Source: Lachnospiraceae bacterium (lineage in GTDB: Bacteria > Bacillota > Clostridia > Lachnospirales > Lachnospiraceae). From it: DNA of 64,000 bases. Below, one piece after another: positions 3,713 through 63,283 of the stretch. The stretch covers positions 1 to 64,000 of the forward strand of contig JAGAQJ010000045.1 of the NCBI GenBank assembly GCA_017622845.1, read 5' to 3'. Position 1 is the stretch's first letter. Every line of letters begins with the position of its first letter. Both the position numbers and the translations under genes were made by a program. The notes beneath the pieces are model-generated. The model searched no databases and had not been told where the DNA came from. It worked only from the letters and a program-made list of their open reading frames with translations.

Positions 3713-3892
3713 GAGGCATGAATGCAGGCTCCGTCGTCATTAGAAAGCCTTCCTCATCGTATTAGGAAATTCCCGTTCGGAACCAATGGAGCGAAGTAAC
3801 AGTTCGGTCGTATGGATTATTTTAATCAGGACGAAGGGCGGATAGAATCCTGCAGGCTGCCCGGTGAAGAATGGTGATATTTCCTTACTTTT
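3713..3892 (-). repeat. Decayed copy of the palindromic element (R1/R2 pieces)
   Basis: Contains reverse-complement blocks of the R1 element at 60528 (CATCGTATTAGGAAATTCCC, GAACCAATGG, GCCCGGTGAAGAATGGTGAT) and an R2/outer-end block (GTAACAGTTCGG, GGATTATTTTAATCAGGACG). The order is scrambled and parts are missing, so this is a broken composite copy. It fills most of the 269-bp gap between the AI-2E permease and the LysR gene. Confidence 0.65.
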
Positions 3893-8058: not shown

Positions 8059-8137
8059 ATGAAAGACTCAAGGCACCACGAAGTGGTTCTGCATGCCTTG
8101 AGTCCTGTAACAGGAAGCCGAAGGCTGAACTGTTACC
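8059..8137 (+). repeat. Short decayed R3-type palindromic element
   Basis: GACTCAAGGCA...TGCCTTGAGTC stem (about 8066-8103) encloses the CACCACGAAGTGGTT loop that is also present in the R3 copies at 18065, 18208 and 50691. The right end is GGCTGAACTGTTAC, the shared outer end of the element family. The stem sequence differs from other R3 copies (CATCAAGTCA / TGACTTGATG) but is still self-complementary. Confidence 0.7.
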
Positions 8138-8245: not shown

Positions 8246-8277
8246 CTGGTAATTGTTCAGTCCGGAAACTGAATCGT
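8246..8277 (+). repeat. Minimal element end pair
   Basis: TTGTTCAG...CTGAATCGTTAC with only a few bases between: the two outer ends of the repeat family joined without cargo. It lies in the lacI leader, about 37 nt before the palindromic operator. Confidence 0.5.
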
Positions 8278-8313
8278 TACAAATACTGCAGGGAAAGAAA
8301 AATATCATCATAA

Positions 8314-18064: not shown

Positions 18065-18335
18065 TGTTCAGCACAGCACGACGCACTTGCTGCGGAGTGC
18101 GTGAGAATGCGTAAATTGCGTTAGGCATCAAGTCACCACGAAGTGGTTTTGCATGACTTGATGCCCGTGACGATGAAGGTACTGAATCGCTACATGATAA
18201 CGTAATTGTTCAGCACAGCACGACGCACTTGCTGCGGAGTGCGTGAGAATGCATAAATTGCGTTAGGCATCAAGTCACCACGAAGTGGTTTTGCATGACT
18301 TGATGCCCGTAACGATGAAGGTACTGAATCGTTAC
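18065..18335 (+). repeat. Two tandem R3 palindromic elements
   Basis: Copies at 18065-18193 and 18208-18335 are almost identical. Each runs from GTTCAGCACAGC to CTGAATCG(C/T)TAC. Inside, GCACTTGCTGCGGAGTGC forms a small hairpin, and GCATCAAGTCA pairs perfectly with TGACTTGATGC around a second hairpin CCAC-GAA-GTGG. A further copy lies at 50691. They fill the divergent gap between GH2 and GH88. Confidence 0.85.
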
Positions 18336-22954: not shown

Positions 22955-22979
22955 CAATAATCCATAAGGCTGAACTGTT
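22955..22979 (+). repeat. Element end fragment
   Basis: AATAATCCATAAGGCTGAACTGTTGCC matches the right end of the composite element at 52719, with no partner end nearby. It is a solo relic about 30 bp before the tetR -35 box. Confidence 0.6.
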
Positions 22980-23010
22980 GCCAGGCGCGTGGGAGGAAAT
23001 GGTAAAAGTA

Positions 23011-27388: not shown

Positions 27389-27404
27389 AATTGTTCAGCC
27401 ATGC
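27389..27404 (+). repeat. R4 left-end fragment
   Basis: AATTGTTCAGCCATGC matches the first 12 bases of the R4 elements at 49207 and 63062. No right end is nearby. It sits only a few bases before the enolase -35 box. Confidence 0.5.
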
Positions 27405-33123: not shown

Positions 33124-34869
33124 ATGGAATTTGTGAGTCAGAAAATGCGTGAGCTTGCGCCGGAGCTTGATCCGCTGAGACTTGGTACAGGCTGGAAGGC
33201 TGAGGATTTGTCAAAACCGCAGGTGATGATTGAAAGTACTTTTGGCGACAGCCATCCCGGAAGCGGACATTTGGATATTCTGGTGGAGGAGGTGAGAAAA
33301 GGTGTTGCCGAAGCAGGGGGACATGGAGCAAGATATTTTGTGACAGATATCTGTGACGGCGAGAGTCAGGGAACGGATGGAATTAATTTCAGCCTGGCAA
33401 GCCGTGAAATGATTGCGAACATGATAGAGATACATGCCAATGCAACGCCCTTTGATGCAGGCGTCTATCTGGCAAGCTGCGATAAAGGCATGCCTGCAAA
33501 TCTCATGGGGCTTGCAAGAGTTAATATTCCGTCAATCGTTGTTCCCGGAGGAACGATGAACGCAGGACCGGAAATGCTGACATTGGAACAGCTTGGAATG
33601 TACAGTGCCAAATACGAACGCGGAGAGATAGACGAGGCAAGGCTTAATTGGGCAAAATGTAATGCGTGCCCAAGCTGCGGCGCCTGTTCTTTTATCGGAA
33701 CAGCATCAACTATGCAGATAATGGCAGAGGCGCTCGGGCTTGCGCTTCCCGGAAGCGCATTGATGCCTGCAACAAGTCCTGATCTTCTTCGATATGCCAG
33801 ACAGGCGGGAGAGCAGGCGGTAAAGCTTGCATCGATGCCTCATATGAAGCCGGGCAGCATTGTAACGATGGAGAGTTTTGAAAATGCAATTCTTGTACAC
33901 GCTGCAATATCCGGAAGCACAAACTGCCTGCTTCATATTCCTGCCATCGCCCATGAATTTGGGATAGAGATTACAGGAGACACCTTTGACCGGCTGCACA
34001 GGGGGGCGCATTATCTTCTGGATGTCCGTCCGGCAGGACGCTGGCCGGCAGAAGTATTTTACTATGCGGGCGGTGTTCCGGCGATTATGGAAGAGATAAA
34101 GAGGCACCTGCACTTGGATGTAATGACTGTGACAGGAAAAACTTTGGGTGAAAATCTGGATGAACTGAAACATAACGGATTCTATGAGCGCTGTGGGAAG
34201 TGGCTTGACGACTTTAACAAACGATACAATGTAAAACTGACAAGGCAAGACATCATACGTCCTTATGACAAGGCAATAGGAACAGATGGAAGCATCGCTG
34301 TTTTAAAGGGAAATCTGGCGCCGGAGGGTGCAGTGATAAAGCATACGGCATGTCCTCAGGAAATGTTCCGGGCAGTGCTGACAGCAAGACCCTTTGACAG
34401 TGAAGAGGAATGCCTTGATGCGGTATTGAAGCATAAGGTAAATAAAGGCGATGCCGTATTTATCCGGTATGAGGGTCCTAAAGGAAGCGGAATGCCGGAG
34501 ATGTTCTATACCTCTGAGGCAATCAGCAGCGACAAAGAGCTGGGACGCAGCATCGCACTTATCACGGACGGACGTTTTTCAGGCGCCTCTACGGGACCGG
34601 TAATCGGACACTGCAGCCCGGAAGCAGTAGATGGAGGACCGATTGCGCTGGTTGAGGAAGGAGACCTGATTGAAATAGACATACCAAAACGCCATCTCAA
34701 CATCATCGGTGTAAAGGGAGAAAAGAAGACAGAAGAGGAAATGGAGGTAATCTTAAAAGAAAGGCGTGCCGGATGGAAGCCCAGAGAACCAAAATATAAA
34801 AAGGGAGTGCTCAGGCTTTTCAGTGAACATGCTGCCAGTCCCATGAAGGGTGCCTACCTGGATTTGTAA
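33124..34869 (+). CDS. IlvD/Edd-family sugar-acid dehydratase
   Basis: 581 aa. An Fe-S dehydratase that turns an aldonic acid into its 2-keto-3-deoxy form, or dihydroxy acids into keto acids. Key cysteines are in ASCDKGMPANLMG and CNACPSCGACSFIG, the Mg/substrate region in DICDGESQGTDG, and the C-terminal ITDGRFSGASTGPVIGH is typical. The sugar-acid context (GntR, GntP) makes an aldonate substrate more likely than branched-chain amino acid synthesis. Start codons at 33118 and 33124 are both possible; 33124 has the better distance from AGGAG. Its stop codon is also the first base of a repeat element. Confidence 0.92.
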   Translation: MEFVSQKMRELAPELDPLRLGTGWKAEDLSKPQVMIESTFGDSHPGSGHLDILVEEVRKGVAEAGGHGARYFVTDICDGESQGTDGINFSLASREMIANMIEIHANATPFDAGVYLASCDKGMPANLMGLARVNIPSIVVPGGTMNAGPEMLTLEQLGMYSAKYERGEIDEARLNWAKCNACPSCGACSFIGTASTMQIMAEALGLALPGSALMPATSPDLLRYARQAGEQAVKLASMPHMKPGSIVTMESFENAILVHAAISGSTNCLLHIPAIAHEFGIEITGDTFDRLHRGAHYLLDVRPAGRWPAEVFYYAGGVPAIMEEIKRHLHLDVMTVTGKTLGENLDELKHNGFYERCGKWLDDFNKRYNVKLTRQDIIRPYDKAIGTDGSIAVLKGNLAPEGAVIKHTACPQEMFRAVLTARPFDSEEECLDAVLKHKVNKGDAVFIRYEGPKGSGMPEMFYTSEAISSDKELGRSIALITDGRFSGASTGPVIGHCSPEAVDGGPIALVEEGDLIEIDIPKRHLNIIGVKGEKKTEEEMEVILKERRAGWKPREPKYKKGVLRLFSEHAASPMKGAYLDL

Positions 34870-35242
34870 CAGTTCAGATGTATGGATTATTTTAGTCAGG
34901 ACGAAGGTCGGCAGTCCTATGCCGGTACAGGCGATTGGACTCCAAATGCGAATTTTCTAATGGGTGATGCCAAAAGCTTTCAAAACCGTCCGCGACCGGA
35001 CTCTACGCGCCGTCCATGGACGCGTTTCGTCCTAAATCCGCGTCCGTGCGGATTTTCGCGGATGTATCGAATCACCCATAAGAAAATATCAGCATTCTCC
35101 GCCAGCCTGTTCCGGCATAGGACTGCCGACCTTCTGTGCAAATTATTCCATTTTATGGTTTCAATGAACAGAAAACGGCAGGCGGAGGGATACTATCTGC
35201 CGTTTTCGTCCGGATAAGAATACATAAAAGGCTGAACTGTCG
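34866..35242 (+). repeat. Composite palindromic element: R2 plus mini-R1
   Basis: It runs from GTAACAGTTCAG (the TAA is the dehydratase stop) to GGCTGAACTGTCGC. The R2 core (34899-35137) has a 23-bp perfect terminal inverted repeat (starts GAAGGTCGGCAGTCC; its complement ends 35133) and inner arms TTTTCTAATGGGTGAT / ATCACCCATAAGAAAA. Central hairpins include AAATCCGC-GTCCGT-GCGGATTT. The mini-R1 (35169-35213) consists only of the R1 terminal repeats. Confidence 0.85.
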
Positions 35243-35272
35243 CTTGAATTTATAATAATTATGCGTTGCCTA

Positions 35273-39311: not shown

Positions 39312-42300
39312 GTGAAGAAGGGGAGTAAGAAAAACAGGATAAAAAGAATCGGCTGTCTGGTCTTGACAGGTGTGTTAGTGACAGGCTCCTATCCAATGCA
39401 GGCTGGTGCTGCTGATTTTGGTCTGCCGCAGAATGTGACAGCACAGATGGAGTCGGAGGAAGCAGACATTCTGACGGTTGATAAAATGAGGGATAAGAGG
39501 AATGCTGGAATTGAGAATATCGTTCAAGCGGAACTTCCGGTAGTTGGGAAACCGGAGGAAGATAATAGTCTGACAGTTAAGAATTTGGATAACGGACATG
39601 GGACAACAAAGGAAAATGTAACAGAGGAAGAAACAGAAAATAAAGAAAGCAAAACCGGGGAAAATACGACCGGGGAAACAGAAAATAAAGAAAGCAAATC
39701 AGAAGAAAATACAGCCGAGAAAGCAGAAACCGGAGAAAGCAAAACCGGGGAAAATACGACCGGGGAAACAGAAAATGAAGAGAGCATAAACAAGGAAGCA
39801 GAAAATACAGCCGAGGAGGCAGAAACCGAAGAAAGCAAACCAGAAGAAAATACAACCAGAGAAAGCAAACCAGAAGAAAATACAGCCGGAGAAACAGAAA
39901 ACGAAGAAATTATAACCGGGGAAAATACGACCGGGGAAACAGAAAATGAAGAAAGCATAAACAAGGAAACAGAAGGCGGAGAAAGCAAACCAGAAGAAAA
40001 TACAACCGGAGAAAGCAAACCAGAAGAAAATACAGCCGGGGAAACAGAAAATGAAGAGAGCAAGCCAGAGGAAGCTGCTAATCATGTAAAGATTATTCAA
40101 ATGAGCGCTGTGCTTGATTCGGTCAGTGAACCTGTATACATCAGTGGCGAGGAAGGCAGACCGGGACATTTTGCAATCAATGTCAATGGCTCTGCGCATG
40201 CAGATTTTGAAGCAGCCGGCATAAAAGACGGCAGGAATCAGCTGCAGGAAAGCAGAGAGAATCCGGAAGAAGGCTCAGCCATTGGAGAAAGCAGAGAGAA
40301 TCCGGAAGAAGGCTCAGCCATTGGAGAAGACAGAGAGAATCCGGAAGAAGGCTCAGACTTTGCTGAAGGAGACTTGAACGAAATAAAAAGTGCGCTTGCC
40401 TCACAGTGCCGCTTGGAACTAAGAATGGTTTTGCCGTCGGGGAATTGTGAGATGCTTGAACGTTCTGACCTGTCTGTCGAGGACGGCAGCGGCAGCATGG
40501 GCGGTTCTGTGTCCTGCCCTGAGGTAAGTCTTACAGAGACAGGCATATATCAATTGTATGCAGTGCTGATTGGTCCGGATGGTACAGAATATGAGTCGGA
40601 TAGAGCAGAGATTCCTATAACCATACCCGATCCGATTCAGGTAGAAGTAACAGGGACAAAACTGCAAGCCTGCGCATATACAGAATGCAAAGAAGGGGAT
40701 ATCTGTACAGGGTTTGAAATTCCATACACTGTCACAGCGCAGATAAGTCTTACAGGACTCGGTGATGATGTGTCAGCAGAGCAAAGAGAAAGCGAAATTG
40801 CATACTGTCTCTCCCAATATAAGATTTGTGTTAAGAAAGACAGCGGAGAATTTTGCGAAGACACACTGCAGAAGGAAGATGTGATTCAAGGATTGATTCG
40901 TAACAACGGAGCAGCATATGCATATACAGCGTACGGAAGCGTAAAGGTTGATTCCGCAGGAGAGCATGTCCTGCATGCGGCAGTGAATGACATGGAAGCT
41001 GCTGCTTGTCAGGTACATATCGCTAAGCTGCAGCAGCGTCTTTGCTACACTTTAGACAAAAACGACAGGGATTTTTACCGGTTTGATGAGACAGCCCTCT
41101 GCACCCGGGCAGAGGGAATTTATATTGGAGAGCGGCAATGCTTTGAATCGAATCAGGACGGAGAAGAGATTATTGGAATCACTGATAAGAAGCTGACGCT
41201 TGAAGAGGACAACAAAAGCTATCGGATTTCGGCAGACAATCAAAGCTGTAGGAATCAGCAGACCTGTTATATTACCATTTCCCATGCAGGCAATCAAATC
41301 TATCAGCCTGCAAGTCAGACAATTGCCGTAGTATTTGAAAGAATCGCGCCGCAGATAACGTATCATTGCGATGCCGCAGAGGACGTCCACAGGTATCAGA
41401 CCACGCTTACATATACAATTCCTGATTTTGTTGATGCCGACAGGGTAGAATGCTGCGAGGTTATCGAAGACAGCAATGGAACGGTAACGAAAGCAAATAA
41501 TTTGGAGATACGCAAAAACGGCAGAGAAATAACAATTTATCACGAAAATCAGCAAAATCAGGAGTCATCCGTTCACGCTCTAATGTTTGCATATAAGGGA
41601 GACAGTGTCTGTCGGGACGAAAAGCAGATGATTTCCCTGCATTTTGCGAGACTCGAAAATAACATCTGTTATGTTTCGGACAGCATTGGTGATACACATG
41701 AATACGGTGAGGTCATCACATTTACGTATCAAAGCGGCGATACTGCCGGAGGCATCACATGTTATGAATCCGACGCGGAGGGAAATCCGGTTTCCGGTCC
41801 CCGCAATTTGTATATTGAAAATGGTAAATATGGCAGCTTTCAGGTAAAAGGCACAAAACTGTCGGATGCAGACCAGCCATTTTATGTAACAATTGCTCAT
41901 GCAGAAAATGAAATCTACAACGGCGCACGGCAGACCTTTGCTTTTCCTGTCGTGAAGGTAAAGCTGGAAGGAAGCATAACTGTAAATGATGCGGAAAAAA
42001 ATTATATTTTTTTCAAAACCAGAAAAATGTATATTGATGTAACTATGAAGGCTTCAAACGGAAACCTGCCCAAGGAAGATGCAGACAAGATAAGATTTCG
42101 TTTTCAGGTTTTATCTTCTCCAACGGATGTTCAGAACATGAACGCTCATCTGGTAAAAATATCCTATCAGAATGATAAAGCAGTATATCGGTATCAAGTC
42201 AGTGAGGAATGCGCCCGGGCACTCAGGGGCGGAGAAAGCTATGCCATAAGAGCAGTCGCAGATTATTCCGGAATTTCAGAGAAAGAAATATATTATCAGG

Positions 42301-45300
42301 AATTCAGCAAGGTATTTGATACCCTTTCTGTACAGCAAAGGGAGCTTGAGATACAGGTGCAGAAGGAGCTTACTGTTGAACTGAATAACCAGGTCAATCA
42401 ACTGGATTTTAAGGTCACAGGAGAAAAAACGGAAGGCACGGAGAGATTTCCTGTTTCCTGCAGAATTGAGGCTAAAGACCCTTCTGTGATTGCTGTTTGC
42501 GATGACGGTACATACAGGACGCTCACAGGGGGAAGCACGACACTGACGATTACGGCTGATGACAGTTCGGAATATGACCTTTATAAGGAGTGCTCGGCTG
42601 AGGTTCAGGTAACTGTTCAGGCACCGGGTAATACGGACTATACCTTAAACGGACAGGACCCGCAAACCTTTCTGGAAAATCCGCATGCAGCGGCAGAGGG
42701 TGAAAAATGGTACGGGAACGACATTGTCCTGCGCTTTGGAGAGAACAATCTTTATGATGAGCTGTACTACAGAAGAAACGGCAGGGGCGAATGGATTCAT
42801 GTCAATGGAAGACAATTTGTTATCAGTGAATCGATGCCGACAACGTATGAGTTCTATTTCTGTGATACAGAACGAAAAGTGGCAAGCTGCATAATGAAGG
42901 GAAACAAGGCTGTGGAAGGCAGGCTTGAAGTGATGTCCCAAATCGGCGTAGACACAACAGCGCCCTCATGGAATGCGCACTTAACAGCAGATAAACAGCC
43001 AAGTGTGCACTCTACACAGGCGGTCAGCTATTTTCCGACGGGAATTGTGCTGACAGGCTGTGCCGGAGAAGAATCGGAAACAGGGCAGTTTGTGGATTCC
43101 GGCTCGGGAATTTGTGAATTGCATGTGCAGTATGGTAATGAAACGGTTTGGGATGTGTATCCGGTTTCGGAAAGATACAGCCGCAGCTACGGGATTGCCC
43201 TCAATGAAAACAAAAATTATGGAACGGTCAGGATAAAGGCAGTTGATTATCTTGGACATGAAAGTGAACCGGCAGAATATGCGCAGGAAATATGCGTCGA
43301 TGATGGAGTGCCGAAGGTTGCCATGACAGCGATAGCCATAGACAAGACAGGCATAGCATCGGACTACGACGGAACCTGGACGAATCAGCAGCTTCGGTTT
43401 GTACTTGGCTCTTTGGATGACACACAGGTTTCGGGAATTTACTGTTATGAATATGCATTTATTCCGCGGGGAAGCAAAACAAAACCGACACAGGCAGTAT
43501 GGAAGCCAATTGACAAGGACGAGCTGGTGCTTGTATTCGGCACGATGTATGAGCATACACAGGAAACAAAGGAAGGAACCTTCTTATATGCAGAAAAAGA
43601 AGAGAAAACCTCCGAACGAAAGACCTCCGAAAGAAAGAACTCAGAACGAAAGACCTCCGAACAAAAAAAATCTGAACAAGCAGCAGAAAGGACGGTCAGG
43701 GAATATGCACAGATGAACGGCACTCTTTATATCCGGGCAGAATCCAATGCAGGTCTTGTGACAATGGATGAGGATATCCGTAAGAATCAGCAGCAGGTTC
43801 GAATCTGGCAGCAGGATTTGGAAGAAGCCAGAGTGACAGCAAGCATCAGACCCGACTCCGGCACAGGCTGGTACAACAAGGAAACAGGTCCGGTGACTCT
43901 TTCCTTTGAATATCCGGTATATGATGCGGAGCATACCGCTCCGGCTGTGGGAATCGTGTATACCCTTGCAGTACAGACAGAGAAGGACGGGGAGGCTGCA
44001 ACTGTCCAAAAAACGTTCTATAAGGGAATAATCAATGAAAGCTCCCGGAAAGTAATTGAAGTCCGCGATTACAGGGATGAAGACTCCCGGATTCAGCTTG
44101 CAGGAGACGGAAAAATTCAAATTGACAAAGACAGCATGAATACACTGACTGTATATATAGAGGATGCAGCCGGAAACCGGTCGGATAAAACGGTCTTTCA
44201 GATCAATGCCGATTATGCAGCACCGCAAAATCTGTCTGCCGAAGCGGACGGCGCAGACCTGCTGCTCCACATGGACAGTCAGGAAAGCATTTTATATAGG
44301 AAGTTTTCGCAAAATTCCGTGCGAGTCAGTGCACATGCTGAGTATGGAATCAGTGGGAAAAAGAGCTTTTACATGGTTCCGATAAAGGAACAAGGCGCAA
44401 AGGAAAGTCTTTCTTCAGACAATGCAAGGGAAGAACTGGTGATGGAGCCATGCAGCAGAGGAATCGTATACCTGTGCGCAACAGATGGTGCAGGAAACTG
44501 TTCCGAGGCGTGGACAGACGGCATTGTTGTGGATAATCTTGCACCGGCAGGAATCGGCAGTCAGGAGATCTCGATTACTGCGGAAGGTCAAAAGGAACAA
44601 AAATTTTATAATAAAGATATTCCTGTCTCTATCCGCGTGGCAGATGCGCCGGACAATGACAATTATTCAGGACTGAAATCCGTTACCTATAGCATAGGAA
44701 GAGATGCTCAGCATACAAAGGAAAATGTGCCTTTGTTTGACAGCAGCGAAAATAGTCTTTCATGGGAACAGATTGAGAAAAGTAAGTCTTTTGAAACAAA
44801 TCAAATTGTCATCGATGCCGCGGAGAACGAAAGCAGCAATGCATATATTACGGTTACGGCAACAGACAATGCAGGAAACAGTACTACAACAACACAGGAA
44901 TTTCAGATTGATGTAACACCGCCTCAAGTGGAAATAACCTTTGATCAGAATGATGCAGTCAATGGCACATATTATCACAGCAGCCGGGTTGCAAGAATTG
45001 ATATTACAGAGCGGAACTTTGACCCGGAGCAGGTATTTTTTCAGATTTACAGAGATGGCCAAAAGGATAACACACTGATTCCCTCTGCATCAGACTGGAC
45101 TGCTTCCGAAGGCTGGGTCAATACAGCCTATATTACCTTTGCAGATGACGGCGATTATTCGTTGGAGGCAGAGTGCACAGACCTTGCCGGAAATCAATCG
45201 GACATAGCGGCAGCACCACATTTTACGATTGATCAGACAAAACCGGTTGCAGAGATTGTCTATGATAATAATCGCGCCTTGAATGGGAACTATTATCATC

Positions 45301-46652
45301 AGGAGCGGACGGCATTCATCACTGTTACAGAGCATAATTTCGATGAAAAAGATTTTGCAGCAGTGATTACGCCGCATGCGTCGGTCAGCGGCTGGACACA
45401 CCATGGAGATGTACATAAAGCCTCCATACGCTTTGACAGCGAGGAGTATTACAGCTATTCCATAGATTATGCAGACCTTGCCGGAAATAAAATGGAAGCG
45501 TTTGCGGCAGAAGCGTTTTACATTGATATGAGCCAGCCAGAGATTCAGATTACAGGAGTGGCGGATCATTCTGCCAATGCCGGAGAGGTGATTCCGGTCG
45601 TCACAATTGCTGATGCAAATTATGACCCGGATTCTGTTCAGATAACCCTGCAGAACAGCAAAGGTCAGGAGATTGATGTAAACCGGAGCGGGACAGAGGC
45701 AGCCGGAGAGTACCGTTACACACTGACAAATGTCAATGAGCAGCCTGATGAGATTTATACCATATCAGCGGCTGCATCCGATATGGCAGGAAATACGAGC
45801 GAGCTGAGCTGCATGTTTTCCCTGAACAGAAATGGTTCGGTTTATGATTTAAGCAGGATATCCGCACTGAGGGAGAAGGCATTTATCCGATATGAGGATA
45901 TGCAGGATTTAGAGATTAAGGAGATGAATGTCAATACCGTTGAAACGTTTGGCATTTATGTCACGAGAAATGGTGAAATGATTCCATGCACAGAAAAGAA
46001 TGTGAGAGGGAATCAGGAGGCTGCTGACATGATTTATTATGACATGCAGGAAAAAGGAAATGATGAGACTGGCTATGAATATGATTATACCATTTATAAA
46101 GAATCCTTCCGGCAGGAGGGCATCTATCATATTATGTTCTATTCAAAGGATAAAGCCGGAAATGAGGTGAATAATACCTTAACGGAAAAAGCGGCAGAGC
46201 TTGCTTTTGTCATCGACAACACAGCTCCCACAGTCGTAGTCGAGGGCGTTGAGGCAGGCGTGCTGTATTCAGAGGAGACGAAGGACATCAATGTCTATGT
46301 ATCGGATAACTTTAAGCTGCAGGAAGCATATTTTGAGCTTGTAGAAGAAGGAGGTAAGGTTCTTGAGACATACGATTACGTGGAACTGGCAAAAGAGGAC
46401 AGAGAGATTGTAACCATAACGCTTCCGGGCAGCGAAAAGAAGCTGTCCATTCAATATTATGCAGCCGATGCAGCAGGCAATGAAACTTCGACGCTGCATG
46501 AGGAGGCAGGCTTTATGATTTCTGCAAATGCGTGGATTCGCTATAGGAACAATAAAAAAGCCATTGCAGGAACGATTGCCGTATGTGCAGCGCCAGTGTC
46601 AGCAGCCGGAATCTTCTTCCGGAGAAGGAGGAAGCTGCTGCAAAAACTGTGA
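39312..46652 (+). CDS. Giant surface protein with Glu-rich repeats and Ig-like domains
   Basis: 2446 aa from GTG 39312. Signal peptide at residues 1-33 (ending AGAA). An extremely Glu/Thr-rich repeat region spans about 95-260, then three 13-residue repeats near 313-352. The middle and C-terminal parts contain many Ig-like/Bacterial-Ig modules, including repeated DNAGNST, VTPPQVEITFD and DLAGNQSDIA phrases typical of Big_3/HYR-like adhesins. A Lys/Ser/Glu repeat lies near residue 1435. The C-terminus has a membrane helix followed by RRRRK, and no LPXTG is seen, so it is membrane- rather than sortase-anchored. It ends the kinase operon. Confidence 0.88.
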   Translation: MKKGSKKNRIKRIGCLVLTGVLVTGSYPMQAGAADFGLPQNVTAQMESEEADILTVDKMRDKRNAGIENIVQAELPVVGKPEEDNSLTVKNLDNGHGTTKENVTEEETENKESKTGENTTGETENKESKSEENTAEKAETGESKTGENTTGETENEESINKEAENTAEEAETEESKPEENTTRESKPEENTAGETENEEIITGENTTGETENEESINKETEGGESKPEENTTGESKPEENTAGETENEESKPEEAANHVKIIQMSAVLDSVSEPVYISGEEGRPGHFAINVNGSAHADFEAAGIKDGRNQLQESRENPEEGSAIGESRENPEEGSAIGEDRENPEEGSDFAEGDLNEIKSALASQCRLELRMVLPSGNCEMLERSDLSVEDGSGSMGGSVSCPEVSLTETGIYQLYAVLIGPDGTEYESDRAEIPITIPDPIQVEVTGTKLQACAYTECKEGDICTGFEIPYTVTAQISLTGLGDDVSAEQRESEIAYCLSQYKICVKKDSGEFCEDTLQKEDVIQGLIRNNGAAYAYTAYGSVKVDSAGEHVLHAAVNDMEAAACQVHIAKLQQRLCYTLDKNDRDFYRFDETALCTRAEGIYIGERQCFESNQDGEEIIGITDKKLTLEEDNKSYRISADNQSCRNQQTCYITISHAGNQIYQPASQTIAVVFERIAPQITYHCDAAEDVHRYQTTLTYTIPDFVDADRVECCEVIEDSNGTVTKANNLEIRKNGREITIYHENQQNQESSVHALMFAYKGDSVCRDEKQMISLHFARLENNICYVSDSIGDTHEYGEVITFTYQSGDTAGGITCYESDAEGNPVSGPRNLYIENGKYGSFQVKGTKLSDADQPFYVTIAHAENEIYNGARQTFAFPVVKVKLEGSITVNDAEKNYIFFKTRKMYIDVTMKASNGNLPKEDADKIRFRFQVLSSPTDVQNMNAHLVKISYQNDKAVYRYQVSEECARALRGGESYAIRAVADYSGISEKEIYYQEFSKVFDTLSVQQRELEIQVQKELTVELNNQVNQLDFKVTGEKTEGTERFPVSCRIEAKDPSVIAVCDDGTYRTLTGGSTTLTITADDSSEYDLYKECSAEVQVTVQAPGNTDYTLNGQDPQTFLENPHAAAEGEKWYGNDIVLRFGENNLYDELYYRRNGRGEWIHVNGRQFVISESMPTTYEFYFCDTERKVASCIMKGNKAVEGRLEVMSQIGVDTTAPSWNAHLTADKQPSVHSTQAVSYFPTGIVLTGCAGEESETGQFVDSGSGICELHVQYGNETVWDVYPVSERYSRSYGIALNENKNYGTVRIKAVDYLGHESEPAEYAQEICVDDGVPKVAMTAIAIDKTGIASDYDGTWTNQQLRFVLGSLDDTQVSGIYCYEYAFIPRGSKTKPTQAVWKPIDKDELVLVFGTMYEHTQETKEGTFLYAEKEEKTSERKTSERKNSERKTSEQKKSEQAAERTVREYAQMNGTLYIRAESNAGLVTMDEDIRKNQQQVRIWQQDLEEARVTASIRPDSGTGWYNKETGPVTLSFEYPVYDAEHTAPAVGIVYTLAVQTEKDGEAATVQKTFYKGIINESSRKVIEVRDYRDEDSRIQLAGDGKIQIDKDSMNTLTVYIEDAAGNRSDKTVFQINADYAAPQNLSAEADGADLLLHMDSQESILYRKFSQNSVRVSAHAEYGISGKKSFYMVPIKEQGAKESLSSDNAREELVMEPCSRGIVYLCATDGAGNCSEAWTDGIVVDNLAPAGIGSQEISITAEGQKEQKFYNKDIPVSIRVADAPDNDNYSGLKSVTYSIGRDAQHTKENVPLFDSSENSLSWEQIEKSKSFETNQIVIDAAENESSNAYITVTATDNAGNSTTTTQEFQIDVTPPQVEITFDQNDAVNGTYYHSSRVARIDITERNFDPEQVFFQIYRDGQKDNTLIPSASDWTASEGWVNTAYITFADDGDYSLEAECTDLAGNQSDIAAAPHFTIDQTKPVAEIVYDNNRALNGNYYHQERTAFITVTEHNFDEKDFAAVITPHASVSGWTHHGDVHKASIRFDSEEYYSYSIDYADLAGNKMEAFAAEAFYIDMSQPEIQITGVADHSANAGEVIPVVTIADANYDPDSVQITLQNSKGQEIDVNRSGTEAAGEYRYTLTNVNEQPDEIYTISAAASDMAGNTSELSCMFSLNRNGSVYDLSRISALREKAFIRYEDMQDLEIKEMNVNTVETFGIYVTRNGEMIPCTEKNVRGNQEAADMIYYDMQEKGNDETGYEYDYTIYKESFRQEGIYHIMFYSKDKAGNEVNNTLTEKAAELAFVIDNTAPTVVVEGVEAGVLYSEETKDINVYVSDNFKLQEAYFELVEEGGKVLETYDYVELAKEDREIVTITLPGSEKKLSIQYYAADAAGNETSTLHEEAGFMISANAWIRYRNNKKAIAGTIAVCAAPVSAAGIFFRRRRKLLQKL
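39630..40075 (+). repeat. Glu-rich low-complexity coding repeats
   Basis: Many imperfect copies of a unit encoding (E)ENT(T/A)GE(T/S)(E)NEES, with an A-rich coding strand and almost no T, inside the giant protein gene. Copy number is likely variable between strains. Confidence 0.85.
40248..40364 (+). repeat. Three tandem 39-bp coding repeats
   Basis: Each 39-bp unit encodes ESRENPEEGSAIG or a close variant. The first two copies are identical, and the third differs at a few bases, so duplication is recent. Confidence 0.85.
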
Positions 46653-46659
46653 TAGTATT

Positions 46660-47300
46660 ATTCAGTCATGCAGTTTATTGAAAACAGGACGAAGGGTGAT
46701 AGTCATATACCGCAACAGGCGGTTGGACTCCGAATGCGAATTTTCTAATGGGTGATATTCAGATAATCGAAACCGTCCGTGACCGGACTCTACGCGCCGT
46801 CCATGGCGCGCTTCGTCCTAAATCCGCGTCCATGCGGATTTTCCCTGTTGTATCGAATCACCCATAAGAAAATGTCAGCATTTTCCGCCAGCCTGTCCCG
46901 GCATATGATTATCACCCTTCTGTGCATGGGCAACAGATTATTTTTCACTTAAGAATTCTTGTTGTTTTATGCTTCAGTCTGCAATAAAGTTGATAATATT
47001 GTAAAGGCTGCCTGTTACTATTCGCCATCTTACGGTTCCGATAAACAGAAAACGGCAGACAGTATCTCGCAGACTGCCCGGTGTAGAATGGTGATATTTC
47101 CTTATACGATGATATATATATAGGAGTAAATTTGCACGGATGCAAATTTAGGCGAGACGGAGGCATGGATGCCGACTCGAGCCGGCTCCGTCCTCATTAG
47201 AAAGACTGGCTTCATCGTATTAGGAAATTCCCATTCGGAACCAATGGCAGTCAGAGGGATACTATCTGCCATTTTCGTTCGGGTGTTAATCCATAAATGG
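46660..47300. repeat. Composite palindromic element: R2 plus R1, filling the gap
   Basis: The R2 core (46684-46925) has arms GAAGGGTGATAGTCATAT / ATATGATTATCACCCTTC and central AAATCCGC-GTCCAT-GCGGATTT. The R1 core (47045-47283) is in reverse orientation. A 120-bp AT-rich spacer with no recognisable gene lies between. The whole 640-bp gap between the giant protein and the esterase gene is essentially this element pair. Confidence 0.85.
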
Positions 47301-47340
47301 CCGGGCAGTTATCTATCATGGGAATGCTTTTAAAGTATCA

Positions 47341-48616: not shown

Positions 48617-49210
48617 ATGCCTACATTACTATTTATTAATGCATGCGTGCGCGGCAGAGATTCAAGGACATTGGCGCTGGCGGAGCATCTGCTTGCGCGC
48701 ATCAAAGAAGCAAACAGCAAGGATATGGCGTTCAAAATAGAGGAGATACGGCTTTCCACAGAGAATCTGCTTCCGCTGAATTATGAGAGACTCCAGAGAC
48801 GTGATGAGCTTCTGGAAGCAGGTCAGCTTGATGATACCATGTTTGACTATGCGAATGCGGTGGCTCAGGCGGATATGCTTGTGATAGCAGCGCCCTACTG
48901 GGATATGTCTTTTCCGGCTTCCTTAAAAGTTTTTTTTGAGGCTGCAAGTGTTGTGGGAATTACCTTTACCTATGCGGAGGACGGCACTCCGGTAGGACTG
49001 ACTGCAGCACAGGATATGTATTATGTCACGACCAGCGGCGGATATATCGGTGACTGCAATTTTGGCTTTGAGTACGCCAATGCCTTGTGCAGACTGTACG
49101 GCGTACGCAATACACACTTTGTCAGCGCAGAGGGACTTGACCTTGACGGCGCTGATGTGCAGGCAATTATGGAGGAAGCCTGCAATGGGGAAATCATCAA
49201 TTATTTGTAA
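48617..49210 (+). CDS. NAD(P)H-dependent FMN reductase/azoreductase-like flavodoxin-fold protein
   Basis: 197 aa. The N-terminal strand and FMN-phosphate loop (LLFINACVRGRDSRTLALAE) and the APYWDMSFPASLKVFFEAA loop match the AzoR/NQO family. VTTSGGYIGDCNFGFEYA is the third flavin loop. It reduces quinones or azo compounds with FMN and NAD(P)H. One base separates it from the esterase stop, so the two are translationally coupled; why an esterase and a reductase are paired is unclear. Confidence 0.88.
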   Translation: MPTLLFINACVRGRDSRTLALAEHLLARIKEANSKDMAFKIEEIRLSTENLLPLNYERLQRRDELLEAGQLDDTMFDYANAVAQADMLVIAAPYWDMSFPASLKVFFEAASVVGITFTYAEDGTPVGLTAAQDMYYVTTSGGYIGDCNFGFEYANALCRLYGVRNTHFVSAEGLDLDGADVQAIMEEACNGEIINYL

Positions 49211-49357
49211 CAGTTCAGCCATGCAGAAACCACTGTGCAAAATGACCGGGGGAGCCAGCTCACTAAGGACAATTTGCACAATGATTTCTATAGGGCGGAC
49301 GCCTGACAACTTATGAATGTGCATGGCAGAGATGAATGTGCATGGCAGAATCGTTAC
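49207..49357 (+). repeat. R4 palindromic element
   Basis: Starts GTAACAGTTCAGCCATGC on the reductase stop codon. An inner imperfect stem pairs AGAAACCACTGTGCAAA with TTTGCACAATGATTTCT. The right side holds GAATGTGCATGGCAGA twice and ends AATCGTTAC. A better-preserved copy is at 63062. Confidence 0.8.
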
Positions 49358-49387: not shown

Positions 49388-50701
49388 GTGGAATTAGCAG
49401 AGAAAACAGAAGCATTGGCACAAAAAATATGGAGCTTGTCGCGAGACAGGCTTTTGGTTCATTTACGCTTTCTTAATGTGGCGCTTGCAGGACTGAGACT
49501 GCAGGCAAAAAACGGCAGTGACCAGATAATCTGTGATGTCAATACGCCCGGCGCTGCTACCATTTATTATGACCCGATGGTCGTCATCAGGCTTTATAAA
49601 AATAATCCGAATAACATCATCAGGCTGCATCTTCATATTCTCCTGCACTGCATCTTCAGCCATTCCTACAAGTACGACCGCGTGGAACAGGAACTTTGGG
49701 ATGTGGCAGCCGACATGGCGGTTGAGAATGCAGTCTTGTCACTTGGAATATCAGGCATGGAAACGCTGGAAGATGAGGAGCGGCGCACGGTGCTTGCGCA
49801 GTGGCAAAAACGTGCAGGCACGCTGACAGCAGACAGGATATACAGAAGTCTCAGAAAAGACCGGCTGGGAATCAGTGAGCTTTTTGAGCTTGGCAGGTTA
49901 TTCCGGCGTGACGCGCATGAGGGCTGGGGACCTGTCGAAACGCTTGAAATGACCGAGGCACAATGGAAGAAAATCAGCGAACGGATTAAAGCGGAACTAA
50001 AGTCCTTCTCAGAAGATAAGTCAGACGACAAAAGCCTGCTCCAGAATCTTGAGGAGGCAACAAAGGAACAATATGATTACGGAGATTTCCTAAGGCGTTT
50101 TAGTGTGTCCGGTGAGGATATGCAGATTAATGATGATGAATTTGACTATGTGTATTATACGTATGGACTTTCCCTGTATGGAAATCTGCCGCTTGTGGAA
50201 CCTCTTGAATATAAGGACGTCAATAAAATCAAGGAGTTTGTGATAGCGATTGATACATCAGGCTCCTGCCGCGGAGCGGTGGTTCAGTCCTTTCTGAATA
50301 AAACATACAGCATTTTGAAAAGCAGCGAGAACTTTTTTAGAAAGGTAAATATTCACATTATACAGTGCGATTCGGAGGTAAGACGCGATACAAAGATTAC
50401 AAGTGATGAGGATTTTGAAGCATTTATGCGTGAGGGACAGTTGGAGGGCTTCGGCTCTACTGATTTCAGACCGGTATTTACCTATGTCAACAGGGCAATC
50501 GAAAACGGCGAGTTTGAAAATTTAAAGGGACTGATTTATTTTACGGACGGTTATGGCGTATTTCCGGAGCATAAGCCGCCGTACCATTATGATACGGCAT
50601 TTGTTTTCCTTGAAGATGATTATGAGACTCCTGCAATTCCGCCATGGGCAATCAAGCTTGTCCTTCCGGTCGAGGAGTTTGAGGACAGCGTGAGTGCGTG
50701 A
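49388..50701 (+). CDS. VWA-like protein (DUF2201-type), partner of a MoxR ATPase
   Basis: 437 aa from GTG 49388 (GAGGTGG upstream). The N-terminal part matches the putative metallopeptidase-like domain (LHLHILLHCIFSHSYKYD, LWDVAADMAVE). The usual HExxH is not present: the site reads HCIFSH. The C-terminal VWA-like domain has a MIDAS motif DTSGS in FVIAIDTSGSCRG and FTDGYG. It likely acts as a substrate-binding partner of the AAA+ ATPase encoded next. The last codons and stop lie inside an R3 repeat, so the C-terminus has been rewritten by it. Confidence 0.86.
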   Translation: MELAEKTEALAQKIWSLSRDRLLVHLRFLNVALAGLRLQAKNGSDQIICDVNTPGAATIYYDPMVVIRLYKNNPNNIIRLHLHILLHCIFSHSYKYDRVEQELWDVAADMAVENAVLSLGISGMETLEDEERRTVLAQWQKRAGTLTADRIYRSLRKDRLGISELFELGRLFRRDAHEGWGPVETLEMTEAQWKKISERIKAELKSFSEDKSDDKSLLQNLEEATKEQYDYGDFLRRFSVSGEDMQINDDEFDYVYYTYGLSLYGNLPLVEPLEYKDVNKIKEFVIAIDTSGSCRGAVVQSFLNKTYSILKSSENFFRKVNIHIIQCDSEVRRDTKITSDEDFEAFMREGQLEGFGSTDFRPVFTYVNRAIENGEFENLKGLIYFTDGYGVFPEHKPPYHYDTAFVFLEDDYETPAIPPWAIKLVLPVEEFEDSVSA

Positions 50702-50790
50702 GAATGCATAAATTGCGTCAGGCATCAAGTCACCACGAAGTGGTATTGCATGACTTGATGCTCATAACTATGAGGGTACTGAATCGTTAC
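50691..50790 (+). repeat. R3 element truncated on the left, overlapping the VWA gene end
   Basis: GAGTGCGTGAGAATGCATAA onward matches the R3 copies at 18065/18208, including the GCATCAAGTCA/TGACTTGATGC stem and CTGAATCGTTAC end. The left third is missing where the VWA gene ends. Confidence 0.85.
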
Positions 50791-50818: not shown

Positions 50819-52345
50819 ATGAATATTAAACAGGCAAAAGAGCATATCAAAAATTCCGTGAAGCTGTATCTGAAAAAAGATGAATACGGCGAATACCGCA
50901 TCCCCGTGGTCCGCCAAAGACCCATTTTTTTATTGGGTTCTCCGGGAATCGGAAAAACAGCGGTTATGGAGCAGATTGCGCAGGAGCTTGGCATTGCGCT
51001 GGTAAGCTATTCCATGACGCATCACACGAGGCAGTCGGCACTGGGGCTTCCTTTCATCACCCACAAAAGCTACAAGGGTATGGAATTTGACATTTCAGAG
51101 TACACTATGAGTGAAATTATTGCTTCTGTGTATGAAGTCATGGAGCATTCCGGCATCGAGGAAGGAATCCTGTTTCTTGATGAGATTAACTGTGTGTCAG
51201 AGACACTTGCGCCGTCAATGCTGCAGTTTTTACAGTATAAGGTGTTTGGAAAACATAAGGTTCCGGAGGGCTGGGTTATTGTCACTGCCGGAAATCCGCC
51301 TGAATACAACAAATCTGTCCGCGAGTTTGATGTAGTAACGATGGATAGAATGAAGCTGGTCGAGGTGGAGGCTGATTATGCCACATGGAAAGAATATGCG
51401 CTCAAGCAGGGCATTCACAATGCAGTGACAACCTATCTTGACATGAAGAAAAGCGACTTTTACAGAGTTGAGACGAATGTAGGAGGGAAATCCTATGTGA
51501 CAGCAAGAGGCTGGGAGGATTTATCGGCAACGATGCTTCTGTGCGAGGAGGAGGGCATTACCGTAGATGAAACGCTGGTAGGACAGTATCTTCATAATGA
51601 TAAGATTGTGAAAGAATTTACTGCTTACTATGAGCTTTATAATAAATATAAAAAGGATTATAAAGTTGAGGAAATTTTAGAGGGCACAAATTCGGCACAG
51701 GTTGTCGAGAGAGCGCGCATTGCGAAGTTTGACGAGAGATTGTCGCTGCTTGGCATGCTGCTTGACAAGCTTGAAAGCGAGATGAAGGAAAATCTTGAGA
51801 CAGCGGACTATCTGACTGATTTGATGAAGCTGTTGAAGCTGATGCGGACAATACATGAGAAAAATGCAAAAAACGGTCAAGAGACAGATTTGACGGTGCT
51901 TGTGCAGACACAGATACAAAACAGGACAAAATTGATAGCATCCATGACAAATGCAGGTACGCTCTCCAATGAAGATAAGAGAAAGCACAGGGCTGTTATC
52001 CGGTTTCTTGAGGCAAGAGAGAAGGAGCTTCGTGTGGACAAGGCAGAGGACGCTGTGCAGGCATTTGCAAGGCTCAAGGCAGCATTTGATGCAGAGGTGG
52101 CAGCGATGAAGGCGGAAAATGCCAGGATACAGGCAAGACTGCACAACCTGTTTGCATTCAGCGAGGCGGCATTTATGGACGGCAATGAGGTTGTGGTTTT
52201 GGTTACAGAGCTGACGGTCAATGCCTATAGTGCGCGCTTTATCGGACTTTACGGAAGCGAGGATTATCAAAAACACAATGCTGACTTGATGCTCAGTGAA
52301 CGGCAGGACGACATTATGCAGGAGATACAAAGCCTGGAGCTGTAA
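50819..52345 (+). CDS. MoxR-type AAA+ ATPase
   Basis: 508 aa from ATG 50819 (GAGAGG upstream). Walker A GSPGIGKT at residues 40-47, Walker B GILFLDEINCV near 116, then a sensor region VIVTAGNPPEYN. MoxR ATPases work with VWA proteins as chaperones or metal-insertion machines. The C-terminal about 180 residues are helical and coiled-coil-like and carry no known domain. A repeat-rich 118-bp gap follows the VWA gene, so both may share a transcript. Confidence 0.9.
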   Translation: MNIKQAKEHIKNSVKLYLKKDEYGEYRIPVVRQRPIFLLGSPGIGKTAVMEQIAQELGIALVSYSMTHHTRQSALGLPFITHKSYKGMEFDISEYTMSEIIASVYEVMEHSGIEEGILFLDEINCVSETLAPSMLQFLQYKVFGKHKVPEGWVIVTAGNPPEYNKSVREFDVVTMDRMKLVEVEADYATWKEYALKQGIHNAVTTYLDMKKSDFYRVETNVGGKSYVTARGWEDLSATMLLCEEEGITVDETLVGQYLHNDKIVKEFTAYYELYNKYKKDYKVEEILEGTNSAQVVERARIAKFDERLSLLGMLLDKLESEMKENLETADYLTDLMKLLKLMRTIHEKNAKNGQETDLTVLVQTQIQNRTKLIASMTNAGTLSNEDKRKHRAVIRFLEAREKELRVDKAEDAVQAFARLKAAFDAEVAAMKAENARIQARLHNLFAFSEAAFMDGNEVVVLVTELTVNAYSARFIGLYGSEDYQKHNADLMLSERQDDIMQEIQSLEL

Positions 52346-52348
52346 CTT

Positions 52349-52719
52349 GTTACAGTTCAGCCTTTTATGCATTCCTATCCGGACGAAAACGGCAGATAGT
52401 ATCCCTCCGGCTGCCATGGTTTCGAATGGGAATTTCCTAATACGATGAATCAAGGTTCTCTAATGAGGACGGAGCCGGCTCGAGTCGGCGTCCATGCCTC
52501 CGTCTCGCCTAAATTTGCGTCCATGCAAATTTGCTCCTGGGTATCTATCATCGTATAAGGAAATATCACCATTCTTCACCGGGTAGCCTGCAGGATACTT
52601 TCTGCCGTTTTCTGTTTCGTAAAATCATAAAATGGAATAATTTGTCAGTACACAGAAGGGCGGCATAGAACTGCCACCCTTCGTCCCGGATAAAATAATC
52701 CATAAGGCTGAACTGTTAC
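52349..52719 (+). repeat. Composite palindromic element: R1 plus mini-R2
   Basis: Runs from GTTACAGTTCAGCC to GGCTGAACTGTTAC, the clearest outer inverted repeat in the window. The R1 core (52378-52615) has terminal arms GACGAAAACGGCAGATAG / AGAAAACGGCAGAAAG, inner arms TTTCCTAATACGATGA / TCATCGTATAAGGAAA and centre AAATTTGC-GTCCAT-GCAAATTT. The mini-R2 (52652-52685) joins two R2 ends. Confidence 0.85.
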
Positions 52720-52747
52720 TGTAACTTTAACCATTATTGCATTTTTA

Positions 52748-52983: not shown

Positions 52984-53910
52984 ATGGCAGAGGAGCGTAT
53001 CATTTCCATAGCAGGCGGAACGCTTGCATATATACCATGCCGGGAGGGCATTGCCATAAAGCGCTTTCGCGGCATTGGTTCAAAAGTGGCTGTACCGGAG
53101 TATATTGATGAAAAGCCGGTAACAGCTATCGAAAAAAAGGCTTTTTTAAGCTGTAAGACAATCAGGGAGCTTTGCCTGCCTGATACGATAAAGGAGCTTG
53201 GTGACTGGGCATTTGCCCATATGGAGCAGTTAAGGATTATCACAGTGCCGCATCATGCGCTAAGCCGCGGCAAGGAGCTTTTCCTTGGGTGTAAGCGGCT
53301 GAAGGAGATAAGGCTTGACGGGACAGCAGAGGGGACAGCGTTGTACGCATCAGAGGGACTGGGACGCATGCTTGCCATTGCGGTGACTGTACTGCATGAT
53401 TATGTTCTGTTTGACCCTGCTGAGGTTGGTTCTGATGCATGGGTCAGACGGTGGGATGAGAAGCTGCTTGCACTGGTGGAGCTTGACGATCTTGACGGTT
53501 TTGAGGAGCTGTGGACCTGTGGCGAGGAGGATTATGAGGGAAAGGACTATGACATCAAATCTTATCCGGTCGAAAAACGCAAGATGAAGCTTCGGATTGT
53601 ATATTTCAGGCTGCTTCACCCATATAAGCTGTCGGAACAGGTCAGCGATACACTGAAAGAATATCTAAGAAGGCATACCAAAGGAACGCAGACGCCGGAA
53701 GCATGGAATATCATTATAGAGGAGCACGGGGAAGAACTGAACTATTATAAGATATTTGCAGAGTCAGGATGTGTGACAGCCGATAATTTTGACAGCCTGC
53801 TGTCTGACATGGAACGAGCAGGCGCGGAGATAAAAGCTTATATGCTTCGGTACAAGGAAGAACATTTTGCAGCGAAAGATGCTTTTGCAGCATTTGAGCT
53901 TGACTGGTAA
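52984..53910 (+). CDS. Leucine-rich repeat (BspA-like) domain protein
   Basis: 308 aa. The N-terminal about 110 residues contain LRR_5/BspA-like repeats (VPEYIDEKPVTAIEKKAFLS, LCLPDTIKELGDWAFAHMEQL). The remaining 200 residues are helical, charged and without a known domain. No signal peptide, so it is cytoplasmic. A strong GGGGGG precedes ATG 52984. It follows the VWA/MoxR pair on the same strand and may be their client or adaptor. Confidence 0.85.
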   Translation: MAEERIISIAGGTLAYIPCREGIAIKRFRGIGSKVAVPEYIDEKPVTAIEKKAFLSCKTIRELCLPDTIKELGDWAFAHMEQLRIITVPHHALSRGKELFLGCKRLKEIRLDGTAEGTALYASEGLGRMLAIAVTVLHDYVLFDPAEVGSDAWVRRWDEKLLALVELDDLDGFEELWTCGEEDYEGKDYDIKSYPVEKRKMKLRIVYFRLLHPYKLSEQVSDTLKEYLRRHTKGTQTPEAWNIIIEEHGEELNYYKIFAESGCVTADNFDSLLSDMERAGAEIKAYMLRYKEEHFAAKDAFAAFELDW

Positions 53911-60394: not shown

Positions 60395-60527
60395 TTTTCA
60401 ATAACCTTACCTTTCAATATATTAATAAATCGATTATCAAATCTCATATCAATCTAACATAAAAATGCGAAAAAAGAAAGCCTTTGAAGACAATTCACAA
60501 AGTTTTCGCAATTGGAAGGCATGTTCC

Positions 60528-60795
60528 TATCCGGACGAAAACGGCAGATAGTATCCATCCGGCTGCCATTGGTTCCGAATGGGAATTTCCTGATACGATG
60601 AATCAAGGCTTTCTAATGAGGACTTAAGCCGGCTCGAGTCGGCATGCATGCCTCCGTCTCGCCTAAATTTGCGTCCATGCAAATTTACTCCTGCTAAAGC
60701 ATCATCGAATAAGGAAATATCACCATTCTTCACCGGGCAGCCTGCAGGTACTATCCGCCGTTTTCTGTTCAGCGAAACCATAAAATGGAACAGTT
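60528..60795 (+). repeat. R1 palindromic element
   Basis: R1 core 60530-60769 with terminal arms GACGAAAACGGCAGATAG / ACTATCCGCCGTTTTCTG, the inner arms around TTTCCTGATACGATGA and the centre AAATTTGC-GTCCAT-GCAAATTT. Next to the start of the PPIase gene (reverse strand), and about 200 bp before the 61003 gene. Confidence 0.85.
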
Positions 60796-62869: not shown

Positions 62870-63061
62870 AAAAATTCACCTCATAAAAGTATATCAATTG
62901 GATTTGCGTCATGTAAAATCTGCTGCTTATCAGATTGCATCATATGAATACTGGAAAAGCTGCCGGTTTCATGGTTATTTACAAAAACTTTTATCGTTAT
63001 AATAGCACAAATTGGGGGAATATGTATATAAAAAACTGGAAATTCATAAAATATTTGGTAA
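62870..63061. other. Intergenic AT-rich stretch
   Basis: About 190 bp upstream of the reverse-strand HD-GYP gene, probably holding its promoter. No gene is seen. Confidence 0.4.
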
Positions 63062-63244
63062 AAGTTCAGCCATGCAGAAATGATTGTACAAAATGACCGT
63101 GGGAGCTTGCTCACTAAGGGCAAGTTGTACAATCATTTCTATAGGGCAGACGCCCAACATGAAATAAGTTGTCGGAAAGAATAAATATTACTGTTAAAAA
63201 TGGACAATCCGACAACTTATGAATGTGCATGGCTGAACTGTTAC
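63062..63244 (+). repeat. R4 palindromic element, best copy
   Basis: Outer stem GTTCAGCCATGC pairs perfectly with GCATGGCTGAAC; the right end continues TGTTAC. Two inner hairpins are perfect: AGAAATGATTGTACAA (from 63075) with TTGTACAATCATTTCT (to about 63140), and AAGTTGTCGGA with TCCGACAACTT (about 63168-63219). The whole element folds as a two-armed cloverleaf-like structure. Confidence 0.85.
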
Positions 63245-63263
63245 AATATTTGGTAATAAAAGT

Positions 63264-63283
63264 TCAGCCATGCAGAAATCCTG
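63264..63283 (+). repeat. R4 left-end fragment
   Basis: GTTCAGCCATGCAGAAATCC copies the first 20 bases of R4, then diverges. Confidence 0.6.

Follow-up and report, generated by a model that had tools for sequence, protein, structure and literature searches.

Miniature elements with IS66-type ends carry TwoAYGGAY (RF01731) modules in a Lachnospiraceae genome and may have their stems maintained at the DNA level

The intergenic palindromic elements scattered over a 64,000-nucleotide stretch of a Lachnospiraceae genome (the window) are very probably miniature inverted-repeat transposable elements (MITEs) that have inverted ends of 12 bp, are flanked by 8-bp target duplications and lie between genes or at gene ends. 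The best explanation, to which we assign a probability of about 0.75, comprises (i) movement of these MITEs by an IS66-family transposase, (ii) carriage by their largest class of modules of the TwoAYGGAY family (Rfam RF01731), and (iii) upkeep of the module stems at the DNA level; this last component, set by itself against selection on RNA, stands at about even odds. The first-pass annotation described a family of hairpin elements with covarying arms and missed their identity, the modules being a known Rfam family and the elements IS66-type MITEs.

The window displays three interior classes with only the ends in common, plus fragments (Table 1), including (i) the TwoAYGGAY class (34866, 46660 and 52349, with broken pieces at 3713 and 60528), (ii) a second class (8059, 18065, 18208 and 50691), and (iii) a third class (49207 and 63062, with pieces at 27389 and 63264). 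Inspection of the sites found element sequence at all 15 places listed in the first-pass annotation, but the list mixes these three kinds of interior. The shared outer ends that it reported were recovered at 12 of the 15 sites, as a 12-mer with at most two mismatches to either of two scanned end forms, and not at 46660, 60528 and 27389; the end at 27389 is a shortened third form, whereas 46660 and 60528, counted as end-bearing copies, display no recognisable 12-bp ends. The site at 3713, taken for an ordinary copy, has been rearranged and is a fragment that carries an end internally, at 3796. The joined forms of full and mini modules occur as described, with R2 full and R1 mini in 34866-35243, R1 full and R2 mini in 52349-52719, and both modules full in 46654-47313. 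The flanks of 34866..35243, CTGGATTT and TTGAATTT, are identical at 6/8 bases when read by eye, and at 34869 and 49210 the element supplies the stop codon of the preceding frame. In one relative (L076), the gap between the frames homologous to those at 49388 and 50813 holds a second-class-like element, as in the window, which may date from an old insertion or reflect a preference for this site. Positions 39312-46652 of the window hold a 2446-aa frame with 15-bp-step repeats and one 39-bp repeat.

Table 1. Elements, cores and target duplications located in the 64-kb window.
Feature	Position	Strand	Remarks
Rearranged TwoAYGGAY fragments	3713..3890	.	boundaries approximate; internal end repeat 3796-3807
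Piece of second-class element	8059..8136	.	right end repeat 8125-8136
32-bp element	8249..8280	.	two ends and little else
Tandem pair of second-class elements	18065..18335	.	first to 18193; second 18202-18335
Lone right end repeat	22970..22981	-	22955 fragment is little more than ends
Third class, lone left end	27389..27404	+	
TwoAYGGAY MITE, R2 full and R1 mini	34866..35243	.	end repeats 34866-34877, 35232-35243; left end provides the stop codon of the preceding frame
TwoAYGGAY core, R2 type (RF01731)	34937..35104	-	89.2 bits
R1 mini hairpin	35168..35211	.	within 34866..35243; outer arms kept, core lost
Composite element, R2 and R1 both full	46654..47313	.	boundaries approximate; ends decayed
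TwoAYGGAY core, R2 type	46725..46890	-	96.4 bits
TwoAYGGAY core, R1 type	47079..47243	+	98.1 bits; divergent from R2 core 46725..46890
Third-class element	49207..49357	.	its left end provides the stop codon of the preceding frame
Second-class element	50662..50790	.	overlaps final 40 nt of frame 49388-50701
8-bp target duplication, left copy	52341..52348	.	TGTAACTT
TwoAYGGAY MITE, R1 full and R2 mini	52349..52719	.	two 12-bp ends
TwoAYGGAY core, R1 type	52417..52581	-	99.6 bits
R2 mini hairpin	52653..52686	.	within 52349..52719
8-bp target duplication, right copy	52720..52727	.	TGTAACTT
Truncated TwoAYGGAY element	60524..60760	.	boundaries approximate; without 12-bp ends
Core of 60524..60760	60570-60735	-	63.2 bits; hairpin 2 without GGA
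Third-class element	63058..63244	.	8-bp duplication AATATTTG at 63050-63057 and 63245-63252
Third class, left-end fragment	63256..63280	+	

The ends, GTAACAGTTCAG...CTGAACTGTTAC, form a 12-bp inverted repeat, and GTAACAGTTCAG with at most one mismatch displays 366 matches in the host genome (3.6 Mb), against 27 for a reversed-pattern control. In the stretches of that genome that were analysed, 33 of 73 candidate end pairs were kept, with both ends at no more than one mismatch and a length of 30-700 bp, and 40 were dropped. The 33 two-ended elements are flanked by an exact 8-bp duplication in 14 cases and by one matching at 7/8 bases or better in 19, the remaining 14 sharing fewer than 7/8 flank bases; no such duplication arose in 2000 random flank pairings, and other duplication lengths from 5 to 10 bp yield 0 or 1 exact cases. 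Among the 12 elements with both ends perfect, four duplications are exact and seven reach at least 7/8, and an RF01731 match lies inside 6 of the 14 elements with exact duplications. As in IS66-family MITEs, the target duplication is 8 bp long and no transposase gene of the two families scanned (PF03050 and Y1) lies inside the elements, which measure 32 to about 660 bp.

Around the element at 52349-52719, TGTAACTT occurs on the plus strand of the window only as the two flanking copies, and gene order is kept in relatives. Ten relatives lack the element: the gap that separates the frame ending at 52345 from the next one, which starts at 52984, measures 638 nt in the window and 8-75 nt in these relatives; in four further relatives with the same genes (L079-L082) it measures roughly 56 to 190 nt, judged by coordinates only. 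A cmscan search against Rfam finds no RF01731 at this locus in seven relatives, and 52349-52719 has no match in phage and plasmid collections. Insertion sites avoid long open frames, with 0 of 16 falling inside frames of at least 450 nt against 0.684 of random window points, for the 16 of the 33 paired elements that had enough flank. One deletion of hairpin 1 is common to 6 of 66 cores of the host genome (66 of its 102 matches being examined), and one copy that lacks this hairpin (C4:32443-32788) is flanked by an exact duplication, ATAATCCG, which indicates that hairpin 1 is dispensable for movement.

As for the mover, the available text of PMC11946415 describes IS66 elements with ends beginning GTAA and with 8-bp repeats. 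The present elements share both features, and the same ends on linked IS66-type genes, but are non-autonomous and display an interior composed of a pair of folded modules; their ends start with GTAACAG, and those of several congeners' elements with GTTAC, compared with GTAAGCG in that paper. An IS66 partner had initially been thought unlikely in view of a profile search that found no PF03050 match in the host genome; because this assembly has a completeness of 95.3% and breaks at repeats, the missing gene is not proof of absence, and the candidate was reinstated by the ends found on IS66-type genes of congeners. Two congeneric loci comprise a PF03050 gene, L190 with ends GTTACTGTTCAC and the 8-bp duplication GCTGCTTT, and L204 with ends GTTACTTTTCAC and the 8-bp duplication TATCAATA. 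The exact 12-mer GTAACAGTTCAG adjoins IS66-type genes or their remnants, and is thereby shared with IS66-family elements, at six loci in five other genomes (L199, L213, L270, L271, L272 and L296), at a distance of 32-39 nt; in L199, L270 and L296 it lies 32 nt from the stop codon, and at the other three loci 35-39 nt from where the match ends. PF03050 itself was detected in L199 and L270, and the other loci were assigned because they resemble the L199 piece. The L199 element, 441 bp long, has both ends and encloses a transposase remnant. Over its 18 nt, the L296 terminus GTAACAGTTCAGCCATGC equals that of the third class of the window, and the L271 terminus GTAACAGTTCAGCCTTTT lies one mismatch from the 52349 end. 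All three proteins that were tested exceed the PF03050 cut-off; their best match is to the NCBIfam IS66 model, but at 132.5, 167.8 and 150.7 bits, below its 180-bit cut-off. An intact IS66 gene between two GTAACAGTTCAG ends was not found, the six loci being remnants, cut by a contig end, or seen with one end. Taken together, end sequence, duplication length and linkage suggest that the elements are moved in trans by an IS66-family transposase. The possibility that the copies are fragments of one protein-coding mobile element, which the first-pass annotation had named as fatal to its interpretation, proves half right: the ends are of IS66 type, but no PF03050 gene was found in the genome and the cores belong to RF01731.

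Many intergenic hairpin elements would also be expected of REP-like sequences moved by a Y1 (RAYT) transposase, but the 8-bp duplications speak against this mover and 7 of the 12 core-bearing genomes, the host included, have no Y1 match, with 1-4 matches in the other five. The Y1 candidate was rejected on the 0 matches in the host genome, and we give this reading almost no credence.

Five cores of the window match RF01731 over model positions 1-168 with 63.2-99.6 bits, all passing the gathering score of 43 bits, and the host genome as a whole contains 102 matches, 101 of them above the cut-off. The suspected kinship of R1 and R2 is confirmed, both being TwoAYGGAY modules with (i) a long outer stem, (ii) a junction, and (iii) two hairpins. 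A full element runs end repeat, R2 module, linker, R1 module, end repeat, with the modules pointing apart, and either of them may shrink to a mini hairpin; all 17 pairs of matches less than 450 bp apart are divergent. Sixteen contigs have an RF01731 match less than 600 bases from their start, as expected of repeats that break assemblies. TwoAYGGAY (clan label CL00106) was described in 2010, and later papers, in the portions available, call its function unknown or unexplored; a description of it as repeated or mobile was not found in the literature examined, including the accessible parts of PMC2864571 (without supplement), PMC11701678, PMC4333381, PMC11661157, PMC7657543 and PMC4383904.

Rfam types the family as Cis-reg, whereas here more than 100 copies are dispersed inside MITEs and their arms extend beyond the model. 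A cis-regulatory RNA would be compatible with the copies that lie directly behind stop codons with the next frame on the same strand, but no neighbour is widely recurrent (among 697 frames within 1.5 kb of 70 loci, one family occurs in 3 genomes and eight in 2) and copy number ranges from 0 to 102 within one genus, which makes this reading very improbable.

In the genus, the core is present in 12 of 38 genomes at 1 to 102 copies, the counts of this survey being lower bounds (at least 54 for the host genome, 102 by full count). Of 298 Lachnospiraceae genomes, 46 contain it, as do 45 of 280 genera, and 19 of the 46 have at least nine matches. Arms and end traces resemble those of the host genome in G011 and G012, as read by eye; in other species the arms reach past the Rfam model and differ in sequence, and still pair. 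No GTAACAG ends were seen at the cores of other species, and 40 loci of other genomes gave no credible 8-bp duplication with inverted ends around the core, the one candidate of the 40 lying inside an arm. In most of these species the core sits in hairpin elements devoid of such ends; the MITE therefore explains the host lineage only, as one carrier among others of a module that predates it. Outer ends of the TGTCAAAAG type occur at 8 of the 40 loci, in elements of 223-292 bp, seven of them 283-292 bp. The core lies in 283-292-bp elements with outer ends like GTGTCAAAAG, and with no duplication seen, in L031, L044, L058, L235, L236, L238 and L239. In genomes G032-G035 (L036, L038, L046, L047, L048, L051, L056 and L057), the outer arms start with GAAGTC and carry copy-specific sequence in both arms, and the 3' side is often GACTTCGCC.

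The paired changes noted in the first-pass annotation are present in the window: the centre pairs AAATTTGC/GCAAATTT and AAATCCGC/GCGGATTT were found in the R1 and R2 cores, and the outer arms of its two R2 copies differ, with changes in both arms (TCGGC versus GTGAT; AGTCC versus AGTCA or AATCA). Covariation was measured on a 32-row set from 12 genomes, comprising four of the five window cores and 28 congener loci, the fifth window core being left out. In this set, which concerns the TwoAYGGAY modules only, 27 of 32 pairs changed on both sides, and the covariation score across genomes, 0.710, exceeds the 0.195 of shuffled alignments and the values of at most 0.196 for slid partners; of 500 shuffles, 1 reached the double-changed-pair count and 26 the pair-type count, which is weaker than three other measures. 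Such strong covariation implies that something keeps the stems paired.

Selected RNA should tolerate G-U and not A-C pairs. The 32-row set displays 14 G-U to 17 A-C (23 and 18 with pair 3-173, omitted or below threshold in these counts), compared with 112 to 17, a 6.6-fold excess of G-U, for RNase P of 30 Lachnospiraceae genomes under the same treatment (genes recovered from 30 of 40 genomes, 11 of 91 pairs below threshold) and 16 to 3 for tRNAs (15 of 16 used); the RF01731 stems thus do not show the surplus of G-U relative to A-C that RNase P displays. For 24 genomes represented by a single core each, the ratio is 28:29, differing from RNase P with p = 2e-7 on cells, a test that counts related cells. 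Counted as distinct pair states, the 24-genome set gives 13:16 against 41:12 for RNase P (p = 0.004) and the 32-row set 9:7 against 41:12 (p = 0.12), and G-U relative to Watson-Crick cells shows no clear deficit in the set of 24 genomes (p = 0.14). Direct alignment of the arms gives 30:34 for 28 elements and, in the host genome (outer and inner arms plus hairpins), 48:37 for R1 and 19:24 for R2; it replaced a loose arm alignment whose outer stems held 245 G-U and 301 A-C. The alignments are not structure-aware, and part of both classes may be noise, as 56 transversion mismatches occur among 895 cells.

The lack of strand bias, together with agreement between the arms of a copy where copies have diverged, favours upkeep at the DNA level. 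The left arm best matches the right arm of its own copy in 11/11 copies of G032-G035, 3/3 of G010 and 6/9 of G018, G030 and G037; in the host genome this holds for 13 of 64, with about 2 expected, and same-side arms taken from different copies resemble each other more closely than do the left and right arms of a single copy. The first-pass annotation had offered hairpin selection, in DNA or RNA, or arm-to-arm conversion: strong covariation sustains that choice, the strand test disfavours ordinary RNA constraint, and the agreement of the arms is mixed. According to the accessible part of PMC8794818, hairpins can arise and persist through template switching between their arms. The stems might be a mere by-product of this process, inverted repeats perfected during replication around a functionless core. 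This published mechanism suits the arms of G010 and G032-G035, which agree within copies and differ between them, but the effect is weak in the host genome (13/64), a T-T mismatch in CTTA/TTAG that should be mended survives in 31 of 32 rows, and loops conserved across genomes are left unexplained; we consider it unlikely as a full account. Since template switching alone keeps neither mismatch nor loops, a strand-specific signal under selection, on a folded DNA strand or on RNA, probably exists.

The loops also bear on a functional RNA spread by the MITE, such as a CsrA-binding sponge with two GGA loops per copy. Tandem G-A pairs are a motif typical of RNA. Their presence in one stem, and a CsrA hypothesis, are in print in the available text of PMC4333381, and the loops are strand-specific. 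Hairpin 2 carries GGA in 32 of 32 rows, but the fifth window core lacks it there, and 6 of 32 rows have no GGA in hairpin 1 (read by eye), which leaves GGA in both loops in 26 of 32 rows and four of the five window cores. TwoAYGGAY shares with Csr/Rsm sponge RNAs two hairpins with CAYGGAYG-type loops, and differs from them in the hairpin 1 copies without GGA. CsrA does not track the element, being found in 12/12 core-positive and 23/26 core-negative congeners, and the host genome, with its 102 copies, has a single CsrA match of 57.2 bits, against best matches of 83.8 to 90.4 in other positive genomes. Together with G-U not being favoured over A-C, these points make a functional RNA a doubtful reading, and the printed CsrA hypothesis gains no support. 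CsrA-domain matches number 5, 7, 8 and 4 in G032-G035, and 0-3 in the other 34 genomes.

In the preferred explanation, an IS66-family transposase would move the MITEs in trans through their ends, leaving 8-bp duplications. The largest class carries divergent R2 and R1 modules, each with the TwoAYGGAY fold and each able to shed its core, and transposition would need the ends and not the whole core, as suggested by the copy that jumped without hairpin 1. Pairing of the stems would be maintained at the DNA level, through replicative template switching from arm to arm, through selection acting on a DNA strand in its folded state, or through both, and the conserved loops and near-invariant T-T mismatch would constitute a strand-specific signal kept by selection.

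attC sites of integrons display conserved unpaired bases. The likeness to TwoAYGGAY concerns the manner of working only, namely that a single DNA strand is recognised in its folded form although its sequence is little conserved (PMC2727003 and PMC6393395, in the parts available), and no cassette structure was seen at TwoAYGGAY elements. As a tentative extension, which we hold to be possible rather than probable, TwoAYGGAY as a whole might be a DNA element and not an RNA. It would then be a single strand that folds and bears a conserved signal for recognition, spread through the Lachnospiraceae by mobile ends of more than one kind and placed in Rfam because arm-to-arm copying mimics RNA covariation.

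RF01731 thereby gains a concrete setting as a dispersed and, in this lineage, mobile module. Equal numbers of G-U and A-C pairs suggest a simple test to distinguish structured RNAs from DNA palindromes with arm-to-arm copying, both of which yield covariation; if the DNA reading is true, some candidate RNAs proposed on covariation alone would need a second look.
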